DNA from: an uncultured Archangium sp.
GTDB taxonomy: Bacteria > Myxococcota > Myxococcia > Myxococcales > Myxococcaceae
DNA length: 64,000 bases
NCBI GenBank assembly: GCA_903905455.1
Contig: CAIVGN010000046.1
Coordinates: 62,001-126,000 of the forward strand
Reading direction: 5' to 3'
Part shown: in pieces, positions 43,496-64,000 of the stretch
Numbering within the stretch: the stretch's first letter is position 1
Layout: each line of letters opens with the position of its first letter
Made by a program: the position numbers and the translations under genes
Notes under the pieces: generated by a model
What the model saw: only the letters and a program-made list of their open reading frames with translations
Database searches by the model: none
What the model was told of the DNA's origin: nothing

Positions 43496-44001
43496 CGCTT
43501 GACCGCCGGGCGAATCAGCGTGCGCTCGTCGTCGTCGTGCTCGGAGGCCATGTCCTGGAGGCGCTGGTTGGTGACCCGCAACCGGCGCGAGAGTTCGCGG
43601 CAGATGTTCTGGAGCACCATCACGTAACCGGCGACGTCCTCCTGGTAGAGCCGGTAGAGGTCGCGGTTGCCCAGCGAGAAGAGCAGCGACGCCTGCTCGG
43701 CCACCACCGTCGCCGAGCGCTTCTGGATGTCGATGAGCGTCATCTCGCCGAAGAACTCGCCGGGCCCCAGGCGGATCATCTTCATGCGGCGACCCTCCTC
43801 GTTGTCACGGCAGACCACGACCTCGCCGTGGCGCACGAGGAACATCGCGCGGCCCGCGTCGCCCTGCTTGCACACCTCTTCGCCCGGCTCGACGCGGTGC
43901 TCCCCGAGCAGCCCCACGAGGCGCTCGAGCGTGTCTTCCTCCAGCCCTCCGAAGATGGCGATCGACGGCAGCCAGTGCATGAGATCGGCTTCGTTCTTCA
44001 T
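43492..44001 (-). CDS. Cyclic-nucleotide-binding domain protein
   Basis: 169 residues. A single cNMP domain fills most of the protein: LPSIAIFGGLEEDTLERLVG, GEEVCKQGDAGRAMFLVRHG, and the phosphate cassette FFGEMTLIDIQKRSATV with its Arg. No DNA-binding helix-turn-helix follows; the last 50 residues are helical. It is the third gene of a MoxR-VWA operon, overlapping the VWA stop by four bases (ATGA). It may make that ATPase system respond to cAMP, cGMP or another nucleotide (inference). Confidence 0.88.
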   Translation of the reverse strand: MKNEADLMHWLPSIAIFGGLEEDTLERLVGLLGEHRVEPGEEVCKQGDAGRAMFLVRHGEVVVCRDNEEGRRMKMIRLGPGEFFGEMTLIDIQKRSATVVAEQASLLFSLGNRDLYRLYQEDVAGYVMVLQNICRELSRRLRVTNQRLQDMASEHDDDERTLIRPAVKR

Positions 44002-45176
44002 GCGACCCTCGCCTTCGTGAGCTGGTGCACCGCGTCTCCGAGGCCCTCGAGGGTCAGGGGGTGCATCGGGAAGATACGCCGAAGTACGTCGATGGTGCTC
44101 TGCCACCAGCTCGAAGGCTGTTCCGGGTTGAGCCAGGCCGCCGAGGGGTAGTGCTCCCGCAGGCGCATCATCCACATCACGCCCTCGACGCCCTCGTCTT
44201 CCTGCCAGCCCGAGACGCTCATCAGTTCCCAGGGGGCCATGAGCGCGTCGCCGACGACGATCAGCTTGTACTTGCGGTCGGTCTCCGAGAAGAGCTGCGA
44301 GAGCTTCACCGCGTCGCCCAGCCGCGCGTCCTTGTAGACCCGGCCGTAGATGCAGTTGTGGAAGTAGTAGGTGCGCAGCTCCTTGAAGTGCGTGGCCTTC
44401 TTCGCTGCGGTGAAGAGCCGCGAGACGAGGTGGGCATAGGGGTCCATGGACCCACCGACGTCCATCAGGAGGATCACCCGGGTGTTGGACTTGCGCGGGG
44501 GCCGCGTCACCACCTCGAGATCGCCCAGGTTCTTCGCGGTCTTGTCGATGGTGCCGTCGAGGTCGAGCTCGTCGGGTTGCCCTTCGCGGGTGAACGCGCG
44601 CAGCTTGCGCAGCGCGAGCTGGAGCTGCCGCACGTCGAGCACGAGGTCGTCGCGGTACTCGCGGAAGTTGCGCTGGCCGGCCACCGAGACGGCGCTGCGC
44701 ATGCCCCCGCCGCCTCCGATGCGCATGCCCGGCCGCGCGGCCCGCCCGGAGTTGCCGAAGGGGGAGGTGCCGCCGGTGCCGATCCACTTGTTGCCGCCGT
44801 CGTGGCGTTCCTTCTGCTCGCGCAGGCGCTGCTCGAAGCGCTTCTCGAGCTCGGCGCGGTCGAACTGTTCGAGCAGGGCGCGCTCTTCGGCGCTGAGGGT
44901 AGGCCGGCGCTGGTCGGCGGCCTTGAGCCAGTCCAGGAGCTGCTCGTGGATCTCCAGCGCCTTCGCCTCGAGGCCCTCGAAGATCGTGCCGAAGGCCTCA
45001 TCGAAGGCGTCGAGGTGCTTCTCGTCGTGCACCAGGAGCGCGCGGGCCACGTGGTAGAACCCGTCCAGCGAGCTGTCGTGCAGGCCGGCCTTGAGGGCGC
45101 CGGCGAGGGCGACGGCCTCCTGGGTGCCCACGGGGACCTTGCGGGCCCGCAGCGCGTAGAGGAACGGGATGAACAT
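43998..45176 (-). CDS. VWA-domain protein (CoxE-like)
   Basis: 392 residues. The VWA fold begins near 230 with the MIDAS motif DVGGSM (LLMDVGGSMDP). The first 190 residues are helical and charged (FDRAELEKRFEQRLREQKER) and a Gly-rich stretch GIGGGGGM follows. It pairs with the MoxR ATPase in the usual way: AAA protein plus VWA partner acting as a chaperone for insertion of cofactors or for complex assembly. The start overlaps the MoxR stop by one base (TGATG), and the stop overlaps the cNMP protein's start. Confidence 0.9.
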   Translation of the reverse strand: MFIPFLYALRARKVPVGTQEAVALAGALKAGLHDSSLDGFYHVARALLVHDEKHLDAFDEAFGTIFEGLEAKALEIHEQLLDWLKAADQRRPTLSAEERALLEQFDRAELEKRFEQRLREQKERHDGGNKWIGTGGTSPFGNSGRAARPGMRIGGGGGMRSAVSVAGQRNFREYRDDLVLDVRQLQLALRKLRAFTREGQPDELDLDGTIDKTAKNLGDLEVVTRPPRKSNTRVILLMDVGGSMDPYAHLVSRLFTAAKKATHFKELRTYYFHNCIYGRVYKDARLGDAVKLSQLFSETDRKYKLIVVGDALMAPWELMSVSGWQEDEGVEGVMWMMRLREHYPSAAWLNPEQPSSWWQSTIDVLRRIFPMHPLTLEGLGDAVHQLTKARVA

Positions 45177-46003
45177 CAGGCCCTCGTGCGCTTCGGCCCG
45201 CCGAAGGTCTCGGAGAACGCCAGCAGGTCCTGCTCGCGCTTGAGCAGCGCCCCCAGGAAGGGGAGGTTCTCGTCGAGCTTGAGCGTGGAGACCCCGGAGG
45301 CCTTGAGCGCCGCGATCCAGTCGACCAGCTCGCTCGTCGAGGGGCGCTTGCGCAGCCGCGTCAGGGCGCGCAGCTCGTAGAAGATCTGCAGCGACTGCTC
45401 GACCATGCGGTCCGAGAGATCGGGGTGGTGCACCGCCACGATGCGCTTCATCAGGTCCTGGTCGGGGAAGTCGATGAAGTGGAACACGCAGCGGCGCAGG
45501 AAGGCGTCGGGCAGGTCCTTCTCGTTGTTGGAGGTGATGATCACCACCGGGCGATCCTTCGCCACCACCTCGCGGTCGGTCTCGACCACCCGGAAGCGCA
45601 TGCGGTCGAGTTCGTGGAGCAGGTCGTTGGGGAACTCGAGGTCGGCCTTGTCGATCTCGTCGATCAACAGCACCCGGCGTTCGGGCGCCGAGAACGACTC
45701 GCCCAGCGGCCCGAGCTTGATGTACTTCTCGATGTCCTTCACGTCGTGGTCGTTGAACCGCGAGTCGTGGAGCCGCTGCACGGCGTCGTACACGTACAAC
45801 CCGTCCTGGGCGCGCGTGGTGCTCTTGACGTGCCAGGTCAACAGCTTGAGGCCCAGGGCCTTGGAGACGGCCTCCGCGAGCAGCGTCTTGCCGGTGCCGG
45901 GCTCACCCTTGACCAGCAGGGGGCGCTGCAGCACCAGCGCGCAATCGACGGCCGAGCGCAGGCTCTCGCTCGTCAGGTAGGAATCGGTGCCCTTGAATCG
46001 CAT
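45176..46003 (-). CDS. MoxR-family AAA ATPase
   Basis: 275 residues. Walker A GEPGTGKT at 33-40, Walker B LLIDEIDK at 121-128, the sensor VVIITSNNEKDLPDAFLRRC, and the arginine finger region RRCVFHFIDFP. It should act with the downstream VWA protein as an ATP-driven chaperone on an unidentified client. TAACGT on the minus strand ends 6 nt before the ATG, which fits a leaderless start. First gene of the MoxR-VWA-cNMP unit. Confidence 0.93.
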   Translation of the reverse strand: MRFKGTDSYLTSESLRSAVDCALVLQRPLLVKGEPGTGKTLLAEAVSKALGLKLLTWHVKSTTRAQDGLYVYDAVQRLHDSRFNDHDVKDIEKYIKLGPLGESFSAPERRVLLIDEIDKADLEFPNDLLHELDRMRFRVVETDREVVAKDRPVVIITSNNEKDLPDAFLRRCVFHFIDFPDQDLMKRIVAVHHPDLSDRMVEQSLQIFYELRALTRLRKRPSTSELVDWIAALKASGVSTLKLDENLPFLGALLKREQDLLAFSETFGGPKRTRA

Positions 46004-46059: not shown

Positions 46060-46830
46060 TTGGTCAAGTGGAAGTTGATGCTGACGACGTTGCCGTTCGT
46101 GGCGCTCGTCACGGGGATCAAGTGCTTCCTCGAGTTCGGGGTGCAGTTCACCGGCGTGGTGGAGTTCGGTGACTTCGGCATCGTGCTGACGGGCGCCGTG
46201 TTCCTGACCGGCTTCCTGCTCGCGGGGACGATGGCCGACTACAAGGAGAGCGAGAAGCTCCCGGGCGATCTCTCGACCACGCTGGCCACGCTGGAGGACC
46301 AGCTGGCCCTGGTGGCGGCGCAGAAGCCGGGCGTCGAGCTGAAGGCCCTGCAGCACGGGGTGCTGACCCTGACCGATGCCATTCGCGGCTGGCTGGTGAA
46401 GCGGCTGACCACCCAGCAGGTCTTCGAGGCCCTGAGCGCGATGAGCGCGACGTTGGTGGAGCTCGAGAAGGCCGGCGCCGGCGCCTACGTCTCGCGCGCG
46501 GTGTCCGAGTTGGTGAACGTGCGCAAGGCGATCTCCCGCATCGACGTGATCAGCCGCACCGGGTTCCTGCCTCCGGCCTACGCGCTGCTCGAGGTGCTGC
46601 TGGCGATGATCCTGCTGCTGCTCATGGTGGCGAAGTTCAAGACCACGGTGGCCGAGGTAGTGCTGGTGCCCTTCGTGTCGCTGGTGAACATCTACATGCT
46701 GCGGTTGATCCGCGACATCGACGACCCTTTCGACTTCGCGCCTGATGGCTCGAAGCGGGGCGGGGCGGAGGTCGACCTGTTCCCCATCGAGGAGTACCGG
46801 GCCCGGCTCGCGGCACGCATGGGCGTCTGA
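46060..46830 (+). CDS. Multi-span membrane protein, bestrophin-like candidate
   Basis: 256 residues. Hydrophobic spans at about 8-25, 38-57, 172-195 and 197-215, separated by a long charged helical segment (LPGDLSTTLATLEDQLALV). This two-plus-two layout resembles bestrophin/DUF4239-type channels but I see no decisive motif. The C-terminus is DLFPIEEYRARLAARMGV. The start is TTG with GGAGG 4 nt upstream, spacing a little short, and an in-frame ATG lies at 46078. TAGCCT at 46029-46034 may be the -10. It abuts the convergent oxygenase gene end to end. Confidence 0.75.
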   Translation: MVKWKLMLTTLPFVALVTGIKCFLEFGVQFTGVVEFGDFGIVLTGAVFLTGFLLAGTMADYKESEKLPGDLSTTLATLEDQLALVAAQKPGVELKALQHGVLTLTDAIRGWLVKRLTTQQVFEALSAMSATLVELEKAGAGAYVSRAVSELVNVRKAISRIDVISRTGFLPPAYALLEVLLAMILLLLMVAKFKTTVAEVVLVPFVSLVNIYMLRLIRDIDDPFDFAPDGSKRGGAEVDLFPIEEYRARLAARMGV

Positions 46831-47532: not shown

Positions 47533-47595
47533 GGCGTCATGCTGCCGCACCCGCAGGAAACTTGCCTGTGTCTTCCTGTAGCGGAGACTTCCGGG

Positions 47596-49068
47596 GTGCT
47601 GATCGAACGGCAGAAACGCGCGTCGCGGGTTCGTTTCCGGCATCCGGTGCGCGTGGTCACGCTCGGAGGGCAACAGCGGGTCATCCGCACGTTGACCGCC
47701 AACGTCTCTCACGACGGGCTCTTCCTGCTCATGCCCGAACCGCTGCCGCATGGGACGAAGGTGGCGCTCTCGCTCGAGGCAGGGGGGCGCGCGCTCGCCC
47801 TGGCCCAGGCCGAGGTGGTGTGGGACCGGACGGACCAGAGCGAACTGCCGGACCACGCGCCGGGGTGCGGGGTGCGTTTCACCGAGTTCATGCACCCGCG
47901 AGCGAAGGAACTGGTGAACTACCTCGTCGACAACCTCGACCAGGGCAGGCCGCTGGCCCTCGCGCCGCCTGAACGACGTTGGCGCAAGGCGTTGCCGTGG
48001 GTCGCCGCTGCGGCCGCCGTGGCCACGGTCATCGTCATCGCGGTGATTTCCCTCTCCGCCCTGGGCGGCGAGGGGCAGGGTGAGGACGCGAGCGAACTCG
48101 AGGACGCCGAGGCCGCGATCGCCGCTGAGCGCAGAGAGGTCGTGCCCGCCAGCGCCTCCGCCGTCCCGACGCTCGCTCCCTCGGATTCACCCGCACCGGG
48201 CGCGTCCAACTCGCACGTCGAGGAGCCCGTCGCCGCCGCACCCGTCGCCGCCGCACCTGTCGCCGCCGCACCTGTCGCCGCCGCACCTGTCGCCGCCGCA
48301 CCTGTCGCCGAGCCTGTCGCTGCCGCACCCGTTGCCGCCGAACCCGTCGTCGCTGCACCTGCCTCCGTGCCTGACGCCGTCGGACCTGTCGCCACCGCAC
48401 CTACTGCCGCGCCTAAAGCTGCCGCACCCGTCGCCGATCCTGTCGTCGTCGCACCCGTCGCCGCACCCGTTGCCGCCGCACCCGTTGCCGCCGCACCTAC
48501 TGCCGCGCCTGAAGCCGTCGGACCTGTCGCCGAGCCTGTCGCTGCCGCACCCGTCGCCGTCGCACCCGTCGCCGTCGGACCCGTCACCGCCGCACCCGTC
48601 ACCGCCGCACCCGTCACCGCCGCACCTGCCGCTGCCGGCCCTGTCGCCACGCGCAAGGGCATCGCCTCCGAGGTCCCCGCGGCACGGGGGGCCACCGCGT
48701 CGATCGCCCAGCCCAAGGCGACCCCGACCCGGCGAGACGCCGCGGCGCGCTCCGGCCCCGAGCGCGGCACCGTGCACCTCCCCTCCGGAGCCGCGTCCAA
48801 GCTGACGTGGGTCCTCTCCGGCACCGAGTTGCGCCTCTCCCCTGACGGCAACGTGAGCCGCGCCTTCCTCCTCGCCAGCCCCGCGCGCGCGGTCTTCGAT
48901 CTCGATGGTCGAGCGCCCGACCGCAGTCGCCAGCTCGCCGGGTCGATCCCCCACGCGACCGGCGTGCGGCTCGGCAAGCAGGGCAAGGGCACGCGCATCG
49001 TGGTCGATCTCGACCGTGCCCCGAGCCGCTCGAGCCAGGACGGCTCCGCGCTCGTGCTCTCGTTCTGA
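47596..49068 (+). CDS. PilZ domain, membrane span, Ala/Pro/Val repeat and AMIN domain fusion
   Basis: 490 residues. Residues 1-115 are a PilZ domain with RVRFR (11-15) and NVSHDG (37-42), the RxxxR and NxSxxG motifs for c-di-GMP. One membrane span follows at about 134-156 (VAAAAAVATVIVIAVISLSAL). About 165-370 is a low-complexity Ala-Pro-Val region with PVAAA repeats, and from about 393 an AMIN-type beta domain (LRLSPDGNVSRAFLLASPARA, GVRLGKQGKGTRIVVDLD) like those of PilQ and AmiC. Topology implies a cytoplasmic c-di-GMP sensor tied to a periplasmic wall- or pilus-binding domain. GTG 47596 lies 11 nt after TAGCGG. Confidence 0.88.
   Translation: MLIERQKRASRVRFRHPVRVVTLGGQQRVIRTLTANVSHDGLFLLMPEPLPHGTKVALSLEAGGRALALAQAEVVWDRTDQSELPDHAPGCGVRFTEFMHPRAKELVNYLVDNLDQGRPLALAPPERRWRKALPWVAAAAAVATVIVIAVISLSALGGEGQGEDASELEDAEAAIAAERREVVPASASAVPTLAPSDSPAPGASNSHVEEPVAAAPVAAAPVAAAPVAAAPVAAAPVAEPVAAAPVAAEPVVAAPASVPDAVGPVATAPTAAPKAAAPVADPVVVAPVAAPVAAAPVAAAPTAAPEAVGPVAEPVAAAPVAVAPVAVGPVTAAPVTAAPVTAAPAAAGPVATRKGIASEVPAARGATASIAQPKATPTRRDAAARSGPERGTVHLPSGAASKLTWVLSGTELRLSPDGNVSRAFLLASPARAVFDLDGRAPDRSRQLAGSIPHATGVRLGKQGKGTRIVVDLDRAPSRSSQDGSALVLSF
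48226..48300 (+). repeat. Five tandem 15-bp units encoding PVAAA
   Basis: The unit is CCCGTCGCCGCCGCA or CCTGTCGCCGCCGCA, repeated five times without gaps, followed by diverged versions to about 48636. It encodes the periplasmic linker of the PilZ-AMIN protein; copy number may vary by slippage without changing frame. Confidence 0.9.
48580..48624 (+). repeat. Three tandem 15-bp units encoding PVTAA
   Basis: CCCGTCACCGCCGCA three times in a row, within the same linker and likely derived from the PVAAA unit by one base change. Confidence 0.85.
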
Positions 49069-49103
49069 CCCTCGCCGCGCCCGCGGTGTAAGAGCCCCAC
49101 CCC

Positions 49104-49871
49104 GTGGAGCTCTCGCCCCTGACCATCGCCGGCCTCTCCCTCGTCGCGCTCGTGGCGGGGCTGGTCGACGCCATTGCCGGGGGCGGCGGGTTGCTCACGG
49201 TGCCCGCGCTGTTGGCGACCGGCATCCCCACGCCCATGGTCTTCGGCACCAACAAGGGCTCCGCAGTCTTCGGCAGCGGCGCGTCGTTGCTGCGCTTCTG
49301 GCGGGCCGGCCTGGTGGACGTGCGCCGGGCGCGGCTGCTGTTCCCGCTGGGGTTCCTCGGCTCGTGCGCGGGGGCGCTGCTGCTGACGGTCCTCGACCCG
49401 AAGGTGCTCCGGCCGTTGGTGCTGGTGCTGCTGGTCGCGGCGGGCTTCATCGTGGCCTTCGTTCGTCCCCCGGCCGTCCGCGAAGGGGGGCCGGGGGCGC
49501 GTGCCGGGCTGAAGACCGCCGTGCTCGCGTTGCTCATCGGGGCCTACGACGGCTTCTTCGGTCCGGGCACCGGCACGTTCCTGATCATCGGCTTCGTGAT
49601 GCTGCTCCACCTCTCGCTGCAGCACGCTTCGGCGAACGCCAAGGTGGTGAACTTCGCGTCGAACCTCGCGGCGATGCTCTTCCTGGCGTGGAAGGGCCTG
49701 GTGATCTGGCAAGTCTCGCTGCCCATGGCGGCCGGTCAGTTCATCGGGGGAACCATCGGCGCGCACCTCGCGGTGAAGGGCGGCGACACGCTGGTGCGCC
49801 GGGTGGTGCTCCTGGTGGTCTTGGCGCTGGTGACGCGACTCGGTTACGACGTGCTCCATCCCACGAGCTGA
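49104..49871 (+). CDS. TSUP (TauE/SafE) family anion transporter
   Basis: 255 residues, about eight membrane spans. The signature VDAIAGGGGLLTVPALLATG near the start and its second-half counterpart GAYDGFFGPGTGTFLIIGF are diagnostic of the 4-toluene sulfonate uptake permease family, which moves sulfite, sulfonates or other sulfur-containing anions. TAAGAG is 9 nt before the GTG start. The downstream selenoprotein begins 12 nt after the stop, with AAGGAG between, so both should be on one transcript. A role in sulfur or selenium handling is an inference. Confidence 0.92.
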   Translation: MELSPLTIAGLSLVALVAGLVDAIAGGGGLLTVPALLATGIPTPMVFGTNKGSAVFGSGASLLRFWRAGLVDVRRARLLFPLGFLGSCAGALLLTVLDPKVLRPLVLVLLVAAGFIVAFVRPPAVREGGPGARAGLKTAVLALLIGAYDGFFGPGTGTFLIIGFVMLLHLSLQHASANAKVVNFASNLAAMLFLAWKGLVIWQVSLPMAAGQFIGGTIGAHLAVKGGDTLVRRVVLLVVLALVTRLGYDVLHPTS

Positions 49872-50793: not shown

Positions 50794-51855
50794 TCAGGCT
50801 CGCTGCTCGCGGGTCGGGTCGACGCTGGGGGTCTCTCCGGTGGTCGGTTTCTCGGCCTTGGTCTTCAAGCCGTAGCGGCTCGCCGCCGAGTCGATGATCT
50901 GCTCGATGAGCTGCACGTAGTTGAGCCCGCGGTGCTCGGCGGCCATCGCCAGCTCGCTGTCCTTCTCGAGGTACGGGTTGGGGTTCACCTCGAGCACGAA
51001 GGGCTCGCCCGTCTTGTTCGAGATGCGGAAGTCGACGCGCGCGTAGTCGCGGATCTTGAGGGCCCGGTAGGCCAGCAGTGCGCTGCGCTCGATGCGCGCC
51101 TTGAGCTCGGGCGAGATGTCCTCGGCGATCACCAGGTGTGGGTGGTCCTCGCCGATGTCTCCGAACTTCACCACGCGGTCGCTCACCTTGGGAATGTTGG
51201 CGTCCCAGGCGCCCCAGTTCAGCTCGACGATGGGCAACACGTCGGGGCGGTTGGGGGTCCCGATGACCCCGACATACACCTCGCGACCGTCGATGAACTC
51301 CTCGGCGAGCGCCTCGTCGTTGAGCGTCTTGCGGATCTCGCGCACCCGCTTGGTCAGCTCGTCCCAGTCCTTGACCACCGAGTGCTGGCCGATGCCGATC
51401 GACGCGTCGCTGCGCGCCGGCTTGACGATCAACGGGAAGTTCATGCGTCCGAACGCCTCGAATGCCTCGCCATCGAAGGTGAGGAAGTTGGGCGTGTTGA
51501 CCTCGTGGTACTCGAGCAGTTGCTTGGTGAGGATCTTGTCCTGGGCCAGCAGCAGCCCCGCCGTGCCCGAACCGGTGAAGCGCACCCCGGCCATCTCGAG
51601 CACCGCGGCGACGTTCACCTCGAGCCGGTAATCGTCGGCGAAGGTCTCGCAGACGTTGAACACCAGATCGGGCTTCTGCTTCTCGATCTGCGTGAGCAGG
51701 TCGAAGACCCGGTCATGCACGTCGATCAGCGTGGGCGTGTGCCCCAGCGCGGTGAGGGCATCGACGACATCCTGGACCACGGGGTCCATGGGATCGCCAG
51801 AGGGTTGATAATGGAGAACGGAGATCTTCAGCGATGGGACTGTGGCGGCTGCCAT
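50794..51855 (-). CDS. ATP-grasp ligase, D-Ala-D-Ala-ligase-like
   Basis: 353 residues. The ATP-grasp core is clear: FTGSGTAGLLLAQDKILTK, FPLIVKPARSDASIGIGQHS (phosphate loop), AEEFIDGREVYVGVIG, YARVDFRISNKTGEPFVLEVNPNP (metal-binding Asp, Glu and Asn). The N-terminal domain (LKISVLHYQPSGDPMDPVV) lacks the GGxSxE motif of standard Ddl enzymes, so it may join other amino acids or acids. It is 25 nt downstream of the zinc metallopeptidase gene, but TACAGT 8 nt before its ATG may also drive it alone. Confidence 0.85.
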   Translation of the reverse strand: MAAATVPSLKISVLHYQPSGDPMDPVVQDVVDALTALGHTPTLIDVHDRVFDLLTQIEKQKPDLVFNVCETFADDYRLEVNVAAVLEMAGVRFTGSGTAGLLLAQDKILTKQLLEYHEVNTPNFLTFDGEAFEAFGRMNFPLIVKPARSDASIGIGQHSVVKDWDELTKRVREIRKTLNDEALAEEFIDGREVYVGVIGTPNRPDVLPIVELNWGAWDANIPKVSDRVVKFGDIGEDHPHLVIAEDISPELKARIERSALLAYRALKIRDYARVDFRISNKTGEPFVLEVNPNPYLEKDSELAMAAEHRGLNYVQLIEQIIDSAASRYGLKTKAEKPTTGETPSVDPTREQRA

Positions 51856-60724: not shown

Positions 60725-63700
60725 GTGCCTCTGAAGCCCATCATTCTCTGCGTAGACGACGAGCAGAACGTGCTCGACGTGTTGTGCCGGATGTTCGATC
60801 GCATGGCGACCGTGCTGACGGCGAAGTCGGGGCCCGAGGCGCTCGACATCCTCCGGTCGCGACCCGTCGACCTGATGATCACCGATCAGAAGATGCCCGA
60901 CATGACCGGCATCGAGCTGGTGCGGGCGGCGCGCAAGGAGGGGATGGGGATCACCACCATCCTGCTCACCGCGTACACCAACCCCAACGACCTGATCGCG
61001 GCCATCAACGACGGGCAGGTGTTCCGCTACGTCACCAAGCCGTGGGACATCAACGATCTCACGATGACCGTGCGCAACGCGCTGTCGGTCGCCCAGCTGC
61101 GCAAGGAGAAGGAGCGGCTGCTCGAGTCGCTGCACAAGCGCATCGAGGCACTCAACGTCATGTACGAGGTCAGCCGCCAGAGCGCGACGGACGCCCCCTC
61201 GCTCGACGCCATCGTCGACCGGCTGCTCTCGACCATCGGCCGGGTGCTGCCCCACGACGCCAGCGCGGTGCTCATCGAGGCCAGCGACGCCCAGACCGCG
61301 GCGCTGCGCATTCGCTGCACGACGGGCCTGACCGAGACCGCCCTGCTGCACGTGAAGGACTCGGTGCTCGGCTCGCACCGCAAGGCCGCGGGCGTGGTGC
61401 TGACCGAAGACCGGGTGATCACCAACGTCGCCGGCCACGTGGGCGCGGTGGCCGACGGGCTGTCGACCTTCGCCTGCGCCATCTCCGTGCCGCTGGTCTC
61501 GCAGCAGCAGACCGTGGGCACGCTCTCGCTCTTCTCGACGCGGCCCGACTCGTACAGCACCGAGGACGGCGAGCTGCTCGACCTGCTGGTCAACCAGACC
61601 ACCGACGCCATCACCCACGTGCGCGCGGCCGAGCGCGAGGCCCGCCTGCGCATCGAGCAGATGGTCGAGGCCATGGGCGACGGGGTGATCCTCACCGACG
61701 CGAAGGGCGGGGTGGTGGTGGTCAACGGCGCCGCCCGCACCTACCTGCACCTCCCGCAGGGCGAGCCCCGGCCCACCTTCGACCAGCTCACCACCGCCCT
61801 GGGGCTCTCGCCCTTCGACCTGGTGCGCGGCTGGGAATACGGCGGCACCAAGACCATGCGGGAGGAGCTGAAGTTCGGCGACCGCGACCTGGAGCTGGTG
61901 GTCACGCCCGTTGCCACCCCCGCCAAGGAACTCAAGGGCCTGGTGCTGGTGCTGCGCGACGTCAGCGAGCAGAAGCTGCTGACGCAGCGCAAGGACGAGT
62001 TCGTGGGCGTCATCAGCCACGAGCTGCGCACCCCCCTGACGAGCATCGCCGGCGCCCTCGACCTGGTGCTCAACCGCCTCGCCGGCGACGTCACCGAGAA
62101 GCAGAGGCGCTTCCTCACCATGGCCCGCGATTCGACCGAGCGGCTCAACCTCCTGGTCGACGACCTCCTCGATCTCGCGAAGTTCGAGCAGGGCGCGATG
62201 CGCATGGACTTCCAGTTGATGCGGCTCGACGAGCTGGTGAAGACCGCGGTCGAGCGCTACGGGCCGTCGTTCGCGGAGCGCGGCGTGGAGGTCGCGCTCG
62301 AGACCACCGCCACCGACGTGAAGCTGCTGGCGGACCCCAACCGGCTCAACCAGGTGATCAACAACCTCCTGACCAACGCGGTGAAGTTCACGGCCGGCGG
62401 GGGCCAGGTGAAGGTCGTCGTGGGGCGCTCGACCGAGGCGCCCGGCAGCGCGGTGCTCTCGGTGTGGAACTCCGGCGAGCCCATCGCCGAGGCCGACCTC
62501 GAGCGCATCTTCGACCGCTTCGAGCAGGCCCGCACCGCCAAGACCCGCAGCGTGCCCGGCACCGGCCTGGGGCTGTCGATCTGCAAGACCATCGTGGAAG
62601 CGCACGGCGGGCGTATCTGGGCCGAGCCGTCACCCGATGGCGCGCGCTTCGTCGCCGTCTTCCCCGAGCAGCCGCCCGAGCAGGTGCCGGCCCCCGACGA
62701 CCAGGTGAGACCCTCGCGCGGCACGGTGTTGATCGTCGAGGACGAGCCGCAGTTGGCGTGGCTGCTCAAGGCGCAGTTGCTCAACGCCGGGCTCAAGGTG
62801 GTGGTCGCCGGCCGGGCCGAGGAGGCGCTCACGGTCGCGCGCAAGCTCCGCCCCGACGTGATCACCCTCGACCACCGGCTCCCCGACGTCGAGGGCCTCA
62901 AGCTGCTCGAGATCTTCCGCCACGACCCCGAGACCAAGGCCGCGCGAACCATCGTGGTGTCCGGGCTCGACGTGCGGGCCGAGGCGGTGCGCGCCGGGGC
63001 GAGCGGGTTTCTGCAGAAGCCGGTCACCGCGGCCAGCTTCCTCTCGAGCGTCGAGGCGGCCCTCAAGGAACGCCACGGAGGGCGCGGGCGCGTGCTGGTG
63101 GTGGACGACGATCCGCAGATCACCGCCATCTGCGCCGAGGTGCTGGCCAACCAGGGCTTCGACGTCGCGTCCGCGGGCTCGATCGCCGAGGCGAAGCTGA
63201 GCATCTCGCGGAAGCGGCCCGAGCTGCTGCTGCTCGACGTGGCGCTGCCCGATGGGGACGGCTTCCAGTTCTTCGAGGCGCTCAAGGCCGATCGCGCGGG
63301 TGGCCCGCTGTCGGTGATCTTCATCTCGGCGCGCAGCGACACCTCGGCCAAGGTGCGCGCGCTGAAGCTGGGCGGCGACGACTACCTCACCAAGCCCTTC
63401 GACGCGCTCGAGCTGGGCGCCCGGGTGGAGTCGGTGCTTCGCCGCCGCACCTCGGACACCAGCGCCAGCCCCACCACCCAGCTGCCGGGCTCGGCGGCCA
63501 TCGAGCGCGAGGTGCAGCGCCGGCTCGGGGAGCGCTCGCCCTTCGCGTTCTGCTACCTCGATCTCGACAACCTCAAGGCGTTCAACGACTTCTACGGCTT
63601 CGCCAAGGCCGACGGGGTGGTGCGCCAGACCGCCGACATCCTGCGCGAGGTGGTGGCGCAGGTCGGAGACGGCTCGGAGTTCGTCGGCCATGTCGCCGGC

Positions 63701-64000
63701 GACGACTTCGTGTTCATCGTGCGGCCCGACCAGGTCGACGCGATCTGCCAGCGGGTCATCGACTCGTTCGATCGCATCATCCCCCTCTATTACGAGCGGG
63801 CCGATCGCGAGCGCGGCTACATCGAGGCGGACGATCGGTACGGCCAGCGCCGGCGTTTCCCGGTGATGAGCGTGTCCATCGCCGCGGTGATGAACGACGG
63901 CACCATCGATCACCCCGAGCTCGCCCAGAAGGCCGCGGAGCTGAAGAAGCGCGCCAAGGCGATCAGCGGGAGCGTGGTGTTGCGCAGCGACCAGGCCGAG
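60725..64000 (+). CDS. Large hybrid histidine kinase with three receivers and a GGDEF-like domain (continues past window)
   Basis: 1092 codons are visible and the frame has no stop before the window end. No membrane span. Order: receiver 1 with Asp54 (MITDQKMPD) and TKPWD; a GAF domain (about 150-290); a PAS domain (about 305-415, VEAMGDGVILTDAKGGVVV); HisKA with His432 (VISHELRTPL); HATPase with NQVINNLLTNAVKF and GTGLGLSICK intact; receiver 2 with Asp716 (ITLDHRLPD); receiver 3 with Asp838 (LLLDVALPD). The last part is GGDEF-like (LDLDNLKAFNDFYGFAK) with AGDDF at 991-995 in place of GGDEF. The start is GTG; there is no Shine-Dalgarno. Confidence 0.92.
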   Translation, partial: MPLKPIILCVDDEQNVLDVLCRMFDRMATVLTAKSGPEALDILRSRPVDLMITDQKMPDMTGIELVRAARKEGMGITTILLTAYTNPNDLIAAINDGQVFRYVTKPWDINDLTMTVRNALSVAQLRKEKERLLESLHKRIEALNVMYEVSRQSATDAPSLDAIVDRLLSTIGRVLPHDASAVLIEASDAQTAALRIRCTTGLTETALLHVKDSVLGSHRKAAGVVLTEDRVITNVAGHVGAVADGLSTFACAISVPLVSQQQTVGTLSLFSTRPDSYSTEDGELLDLLVNQTTDAITHVRAAEREARLRIEQMVEAMGDGVILTDAKGGVVVVNGAARTYLHLPQGEPRPTFDQLTTALGLSPFDLVRGWEYGGTKTMREELKFGDRDLELVVTPVATPAKELKGLVLVLRDVSEQKLLTQRKDEFVGVISHELRTPLTSIAGALDLVLNRLAGDVTEKQRRFLTMARDSTERLNLLVDDLLDLAKFEQGAMRMDFQLMRLDELVKTAVERYGPSFAERGVEVALETTATDVKLLADPNRLNQVINNLLTNAVKFTAGGGQVKVVVGRSTEAPGSAVLSVWNSGEPIAEADLERIFDRFEQARTAKTRSVPGTGLGLSICKTIVEAHGGRIWAEPSPDGARFVAVFPEQPPEQVPAPDDQVRPSRGTVLIVEDEPQLAWLLKAQLLNAGLKVVVAGRAEEALTVARKLRPDVITLDHRLPDVEGLKLLEIFRHDPETKAARTIVVSGLDVRAEAVRAGASGFLQKPVTAASFLSSVEAALKERHGGRGRVLVVDDDPQITAICAEVLANQGFDVASAGSIAEAKLSISRKRPELLLLDVALPDGDGFQFFEALKADRAGGPLSVIFISARSDTSAKVRALKLGGDDYLTKPFDALELGARVESVLRRRTSDTSASPTTQLPGSAAIEREVQRRLGERSPFAFCYLDLDNLKAFNDFYGFAKADGVVRQTADILREVVAQVGDGSEFVGHVAGDDFVFIVRPDQVDAICQRVIDSFDRIIPLYYERADRERGYIEADDRYGQRRRFPVMSVSIAAVMNDGTIDHPELAQKAAELKKRAKAISGSVVLRSDQAE

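Follow-up and report, generated by a model that had tools for sequence, protein, structure and literature searches.

A family of PilZ–membrane helix–AMIN proteins in the Myxococcota: candidate wall-anchored tethers that may read a cyclic dinucleotide

A gene of an uncultured Archangium species encodes a protein in which a PilZ domain is followed by one membrane helix, a long disordered linker and an AMIN domain, and the same order is found across the phylum Myxococcota. The gene lies in the window, by which we mean the whole 64,000-nucleotide stretch of DNA that was analysed. The order and folds of the domains, their predicted topology, the disorder of the linker, the phylum-wide conservation and the common ancestry of the PilZ domains were all obtained by computation (Table 1). 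As far as our searches go the family is real, conserved and unstudied in the open-licence literature. No characterised PilZ–helix–AMIN protein was found there, nor, judging by titles and the beginnings of abstracts, any fusion of a c-di-GMP receptor that binds peptidoglycan. An earlier sequence-only reading of the window had described this architecture, with a linker of 200 residues, had known of no characterised protein with this order, and had proposed a direct coupling of c-di-GMP to the envelope. The architecture was borne out at each point, as was the lack of a characterised example in the literature searched, and the coupling idea survives in a weaker form. The reading that we prefer, and to which we give about even weight, is that the protein is a single-pass tether of the inner membrane, serving as a wall-anchored landmark or adaptor, and a member of a phylum-wide myxobacterial family.

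Table 1. Features of the gene, in positions of the window
Feature	Position	Strand	Basis or remark
Whole gene	47596..49068	+	GTG start, 490 aa; PilZ - membrane helix - linker - AMIN
PilZ domain, residues 8-118	47617..47949	+	Pfam 8-110; fold
R8-A-S-R11, invariant RxxR at the expected place of RxxxR	47617..47628	+	Alignments, in-register count
[D/N]xSxxG motif, N36-V-S-H-D-G41	47701..47718	+	Sequence, in-register count
Membrane helix, residues 128-156, N-terminus predicted inside (charge rule)	47977..48063	+	Hydropathy, AlphaFold
Disordered Ala/Pro/Val-rich linker, residues 157-387	48064..48756	+	AlphaFold
15-bp tandem repeat (five codons), 29.6 copies, within the linker	48226..48648	+	Repeat analysis
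AMIN domain, residues 388-490	48757..49065	+	Pfam, family profile, AlphaFold, VIA-align

The N-terminal domain is identified as PilZ by both sequence and fold. Pfam PilZ (PF07238) scores 38.5 bits, against a cut-off of 22.5, and AlphaFold models the region as a PilZ barrel. Using VIA-align the model matches MotI (Z 12.2), PP4397 (11.7) and Alg44 (11.2), with MapZ also in the range of Z 11-12, and the best Foldseek match is Alg44 with c-di-GMP (E 3.5e-4). These closest structures are ligand-bound receptors, and to that extent the model tends to support the tether. Searches of the PDB by sequence gave another result. The single window sequence returned a chance match alone at E <= 10, and a profile of the subfamily gave no match at E <= 0.01. 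A profile combining the subfamily with distant members placed PilZ chains of the Xanthomonas type IV pilus at the top (E 5.3e-06); it matched 4f48, 3cnr and 7lkm-7lko with E 5e-6 to 6e-5, some of which were solved with PilB, and one matched Xanthomonas structure carries a title stating trivial c-di-GMP binding. That the best sequence matches are of this kind would weigh against the tether.

The sequence-only reading had credited the domain with both binding motifs. One of these is present, i.e. [D/N]xSxxG, while no in-register RxxxR is found in the window protein when it is aligned with other members. R8 and R11 are invariant in 20/20 aligned members while position 15 is not, and in register the N-terminal motif reads K7-R8-A-S-R11, that is RxxR. 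The sequence R11-V-R-F-R15 was considered as a candidate RxxxR, and was rejected as being out of register with these conserved arginines. RxxR is found in all 24 members of the window subfamily (families f1 and f2), counted in register. By contrast, RxxxR is present in 12/12 members of families f11, f24 and f25 (two of them cut by contig ends), and was read by eye in the relatives in G183, G185 and G171. It is also present in 54/54 other PilZ domains examined, comprising 28 of the 38 in the window genome (G000) and 26 of 122 matches in G063 and G065; these were among the best-scoring domains and so are biased toward canonical motifs, and the count leaves aside rows belonging to the family itself and one from G000 whose N-terminus is missing. 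[D/N]xSxxG is kept in 24/24 members of the subfamily and in 12/12 members of f11, f24 and f25.

In a profile alignment R11 coincides with the second RxxxR arginine of MotI. Structural matching to Alg44 by VIA starts at position 5 of the model and 15 of the chain; if it is ungapped there, R11 would correspond to R21 of Alg44, and K7 to R17. In Alg44, according to the text of a review, R21 is essential for binding and the dimeric form of the ligand requires R17 (PMC8461298), and the R17A substitution is reported to abolish binding (PMC12564702). Binding of c-di-GMP by the window PilZ domain is plausible. It is uncertain here because members of the window subfamily invariably have RxxR where the canonical RxxxR would be expected, and the protein may perhaps bind a ligand in altered stoichiometry, or bind none. 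The lack of an in-register RxxxR in all members of the subfamily would count against a receptor role in the tether. We note that such a conserved change of motif provides a natural experiment on ligand choice and stacking by PilZ domains.

The PilZ domain might have ceased to read c-di-GMP altogether, and bind a partner constitutively that the AMIN domain anchors at the wall. We consider this doubtful, though a serious possibility. The PilZ protein of type IV pili binds the motor PilB in a like manner, and both the replacement of RxxxR and the matches to Xanthomonas chains, some with PilB, are in keeping with it. However, the invariant arginines and [D/N]xSxxG are kept in every subfamily member, which would be odd if nothing were bound, both canonical motifs are complete in the 12 members from other families that were checked, and the PilZ model aligns best with PilZ domains that bind ligand.

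At the other end of the chain, Pfam AMIN (PF11741) matches residues 409-475. The whole protein scores 20.4 bits, marginally below the cut-off of 20.5, and the C-terminal 122 residues alone reach 23.2 bits; in the genome scan the score was 22.9 bits. The domain search that had been suggested by the earlier reading thus gave a PilZ match over its cut-off and an AMIN match at the border. Structure prediction, which it had also suggested, gave an AMIN fold at the C-terminus and one helix for the hydrophobic stretch. In the whole-chain AlphaFold model residues ~388-490 form a domain of ten strands (pLDDT near 96), and the domain folded alone has pLDDT 96.9 and pTM 0.89. VIA-align matches the C-terminal part of the whole-chain model to AmiC (Z 8.3) and PilQ (7.5), and the domain folded alone to AmiC (8.4) and PilQ (7.7 and 7.0), above small heat-shock proteins (6.4). 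Foldseek alone gave weak matches to the AMIN model: AmiC (E 0.16) and PilQ (0.18) both ranked below a virus fibre that is unrelated (0.09). A profile of the family AMIN domains searched against the PDB matched PilQ of M. xanthus (E 9.2e-07), other PilQ chains and AmiC of E. coli (3.7e-04). On the basis of the models, we take the C-terminus to be an AMIN fold. AMIN domains are described as binding peptidoglycan and bringing PilQ and amidases to the septum and poles (PMC10653833), and by analogy residues 388-490 would be expected to bind peptidoglycan.

A first tree grouped the family AMIN domains with the second AMIN domain of PilQ (support 100/99), apart from the first AMIN domain of PilQ and one other AMIN protein; a single origin of the AMIN domains of the fusion had support of 74/0 in the same tree. 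On adding more AMIN proteins the split with the second PilQ domain fell to 81/66, and we therefore do not claim descent of the family AMIN domain from PilQ. The protein could alternatively respond to c-di-GMP by regulating wall remodelling or division, acting for example on amidases and having no link to pili. AMIN domains also target amidases to septal wall (PMC10653833), by structure the AMIN model matches AmiC best, and the gene is not near pilus genes. We nevertheless think this unlikely, given that the family AMIN profile matches PilQ ahead of AmiC by sequence, and that one tree places the domain with the second AMIN of PilQ, more weakly when rows are added.

The two domains are connected by a single helix and a flexible linker. 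There is one strong hydrophobic stretch, residues 136-154 (Kyte-Doolittle mean 2.56), lying within a single helix in the AlphaFold model. It has four Lys or Arg residues on the preceding side and none on the following. Such an excess on the N-terminal side is found in 19 of 20 members, the reverse occurring in L085 (one before and four after). Since positive charge thus precedes the helix in nearly all members, the PilZ domain is predicted to lie inside and the AMIN domain in the periplasm. AlphaFold leaves about residues 160-385 unstructured, i.e. a disordered linker of some 225-230 residues rich in Ala, Pro and Val, and the length of the linker in relatives ranges from 75 to 279 residues (setting aside L069, which is cut by a contig end). 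As the linker is disordered and its length is not conserved, conformational signalling through it is unlikely, and tethering or positioning is the likelier function. There are precedents for signalling from the inside outward, in which c-di-GMP on the PilZ domain would reshape the periplasmic part and switch AMIN on or off: in Alg44 a receptor in the cytoplasm is described as joined across the membrane to an output in the periplasm (PMC8461298), and an inside-out c-di-GMP effector system is reported in P. fluorescens (PMC3032545). Yet a linker of this nature can hardly carry a conformational change, and we regard such a mechanism as highly improbable.

The frame is uninterrupted, and a GGAG sequence lies at 47583-47586, nine bases 5′ of the GTG start. 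Comparison with three relatives gave pN/pS of 0.27-0.29 for the PilZ domain and 0.48-0.71 for AMIN, so purifying selection acts on both domains; together with the same architecture in relatives this supports the frame as coding. The whole-chain AlphaFold prediction (20 sequences) has a mean pLDDT of 69.1 and pTM of 0.35. A 646-aa frame at 47919-49859 on the opposite strand is also open, kept so by the low-complexity repeat. Despite that repeat, an artefact of misassembly, a chance frame or a decaying gene can be dismissed, being refuted by the same order in separate genomes, purifying selection on both domains and the confident folds of both.

The window genome (8.6 Mb in 251 contigs, with 38 PilZ and 7 AMIN matches) contains a second gene having both domains, a 378-aa frame at G000:C55 with the order PilZ–helix–AMIN (G000:C55:45407-46333; L079:6875-7834). 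This second type is found in 6 of 18 genomes, and has Asp, Glu or Ala instead of Lys preceding the RxxR. Strong relatives of the window gene occur in its own genus and in other genera of its family (60 related genomes). In the alignment of 19 full members, AMIN was detected in 19/19 and PilZ in 18/19 at E <= 0.01. Among 195 Myxococcota genomes the PilZ profile gave 24 matches of at least 139.8 bits, in 18 genomes, followed by a gap to 72.3. The AMIN profile behaved similarly in 193 genomes, with 26 matches of at least 101.6 bits in 20 genomes and then a gap to 47.1. The search beyond Myxococcota was a genome scan using close-subfamily patterns, in which 185 stretches matched and 20 encoded relatives. 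All 20 of these loci from named genomes are metagenome-assembled, under the titles Archangium sp., Archangiaceae, Myxococcus sp., Myxococcaceae or Myxococcales.

Overall the order PilZ–helix–AMIN occurs in six families of Myxococcota, four of them beyond the f1 and f2 of the window subfamily. In f11 it is found in 9/9 genomes among the matches listed, AMIN being visible in seven and two being cut by contig ends, and it recurs in f24 (G182), f21 (G171) and f25 (G183, G184, G185). The relatives in these four families are more diverged and score below the gap, and in them the helix is often set further from the PilZ domain by an intervening cytoplasmic linker. In a PilZ phylogeny, a branch with support 98/92 separates 26 domains belonging to members from 46 others; two of the 26 come from contigs that end before an AMIN domain is reached, and the 46 comprise 20 of G000, 25 of G063 and G065, and one PilZ-DnaK protein. 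The rows fell from 84 to 81 on dropping three shorter than 60 residues, and to 72 on dropping nine long-branched rows from outside the family; a quick tree of the 81 had the same split with support 90. The contig-cut L069 was left out of alignment A1 and the AMIN alignments, L088 (the same contig under its public name) was left out of A5, and of L175 and L182, also cut, the PilZ part alone entered the analysis. From the single clade of 26 PilZ domains we infer that a single early origin of the fusion is most likely, followed by loss in many lineages. No strong PilZ match was found in 27 genomes of genus g23 (best 54.0 bits) or 16 of g26, and an AMIN search of one genome from each (G143 and G110) gave only a three-match frame of PilQ length and one two-match frame.

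These searches brought up several other proteins having PilZ or AMIN domains. After the members themselves, the nearest PilZ relatives in several families include PilZ-DnaK fusions (L186, L136, L263 and L269-L273), which are of a kind reported in M. xanthus (PMC10313047). G063 holds 69 PilZ matches and G065 53, and both encode frames of ~410-480 aa with three consecutive PilZ matches (G063:C67, C289, C318 and C3; G065:C6 and C26). A 653-aa frame of the window genome (L035, G000:C103) has an AMIN domain near each end and a long, probably helical middle rich in Ala, Glu, Lys and Arg, with no amidase motif. Similar two-AMIN proteins are L251 (G143), L254 (G110), L255 and L258, so that they are present in fusion-free genomes too. 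AMIN lies beside an amidase-like motif in L252 (G063:C375), preceded by a region resembling helical repeats, and in L253 (G065:C2), a very long frame of 1630 aa.

The surroundings of the gene contribute little. About 15 myxococcal loci of the window type are syntenic, with a 2OG oxygenase, the PilZ-AMIN gene and TauE, and a MoxR/CoxE pair nearby, which looks like the backbone of the chromosome. The loci of the second copy share no neighbour except antisense frames of the gene itself, and those of f11 have a convergent VKOR-DsbA-like gene and a coiled-coil gene. By reading, the former resembles a VKOR-DsbA-type fusion and is present in 7/10 f11 loci (L167:9154-10752(-), L168:8004-9413(-) and relatives). 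No gene for a pilus, for division or for a c-di-GMP enzyme adjoins any of the copies examined; with synteny resembling backbone and nothing toward these functions, the neighbourhood was dropped as a clue. The window also encodes a MoxR-type AAA and CoxE-type VWA pair (44001-46003), a bestrophin-like protein below threshold (46060-46830; 23.5 bits, cut-off 32) and an ATP-grasp protein resembling D-Ala-D-Ala ligase (50794-51855). Near its end a 1097-aa frame has a weak, partial GGDEF match (63494-63736, i.e. G000:C46:125494-125736; 42.8 bits).

PilQ is found in 31/31 genomes that have a whole or partial fusion (27 over the cut-off), and the PilQ frame of the window genome has three AMIN matches. 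This co-occurrence says little, since the fusion-free G143 and G110 also have three-AMIN frames of PilQ length. A link to pili had been part of the sequence-only reading; the kinship of the AMIN domain with PilQ and the co-occurrence are in its favour, and the gene neighbourhood lends it none. The organism very probably makes c-di-GMP, as its genome has 30 GGDEF matches in addition to those to PilZ.

The binding of peptidoglycan and of a ligand, the positioning role and the client of the proposed tether are inferred, and we suggest that they might be combined in the following way. The AMIN domain, carried on its long and flexible periplasmic arm, would bind peptidoglycan, most likely of septal or polar kind, and this contact would fix the place of the protein. 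The cytoplasmic PilZ domain would read a cyclic dinucleotide, ancestrally c-di-GMP, and recruit or release a cytoplasmic partner at the place set by the wall. The wall would thus determine where, and the PilZ side when and with whom. If PilZ domains pair or cluster on binding ligand, several AMIN domains could grip the wall together, so that the messenger would tune the anchoring by avidity, and not by a change of shape across the membrane. As such a landmark or adaptor the protein would plausibly serve either the type IV pilus machine or the site of division. Of the direct coupling proposed earlier, the order of domains, the membrane span and the AMIN fold stand, while the missing RxxxR and a linker ill suited to a conformational signal do not favour it.

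Such a protein is of the kind sought in M. xanthus. In that organism a burst of c-di-GMP made by DmxA at cytokinesis is reported to be needed for symmetric incorporation of PilQ, and the text of that study suggests a landmark 'which possibly binds peptidoglycan' between the burst and the placement of PilQ (PMC11255338). The PilZ–helix–AMIN order has the parts predicted for that landmark; the match is of kind, and not of gene. M. xanthus itself appears to lack the fusion, because the available text of a survey of its 24 PilZ proteins describes PilZ-only proteins and combinations with signalling domains or DnaK/DnaJ and mentions no fusion to a membrane helix or AMIN (PMC8316039), and because no strong matches were found in the large genera g23 and g26. 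Both this apparent absence and the lack of neighbouring pilus or division genes are evidence against a landmark. We put forward with considerable reserve, as a rather doubtful possibility, that outside M. xanthus the family is a c-di-GMP-reading peptidoglycan landmark by which the type IV pilus machine is positioned at the new pole or the site of division. On this view the shift to RxxR in the myxococcal subfamily would alter how the messenger is read, with a single c-di-GMP bound instead of a stacked pair, or with a different cyclic dinucleotide as ligand. If true, one protein would grip the cell wall and at the same time sense a second messenger inside the cell, giving a direct physical link from c-di-GMP to the site at which an envelope machine is built. 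That PilZ and AMIN occur fused in nature, and have stayed so in six families, is a Rosetta-stone hint of joint function; the fusion also offers a ready reagent for testing the landmark idea.

Comparison with known systems places the protein among several that share some of its parts. In M. xanthus, PlpA, PixA and PixB are PilZ proteins of the same bacterial group that act on motility; PlpA is a single PilZ domain, to which PixA adds a receiver and PixB an acetyltransferase, and for these the available text mentions neither a membrane helix nor AMIN (PMC8316039). PilQ, the secretin of the type IVa pilus, has the AMIN fold and provides the closest AMIN sequence matches in the PDB, and the division amidase AmiC shares the fold as the best structural match. 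PilQ is however an outer-membrane secretin, and AmiC has an amidase domain, while FimV binds the wall through a LysM domain and has no PilZ domain; a Pfam scan of the window protein found no secretin, amidase or LysM domain. The likeness to FimV is that of a polar, peptidoglycan-binding membrane protein tied to c-di-GMP and type IV pili, whose cytosolic region is reported to bind the cyclase DgcP (PMC7033161). The nearest in plan is Alg44, the alginate co-polymerase of Pseudomonas aeruginosa, described as having an N-terminal cytoplasmic PilZ domain, one helix and a periplasmic C-terminal domain, and as being encoded in the alginate operon and acting on the polymerase (PMC8461298). Alg44 has RxxxR where the window protein has RxxR, and its C-terminus is a membrane-fusion domain. 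The plan of PilZ, membrane helix and periplasmic domain is thus already known from Alg44, and it is the AMIN domain at the C-terminus that, as far as our searches go, is new.
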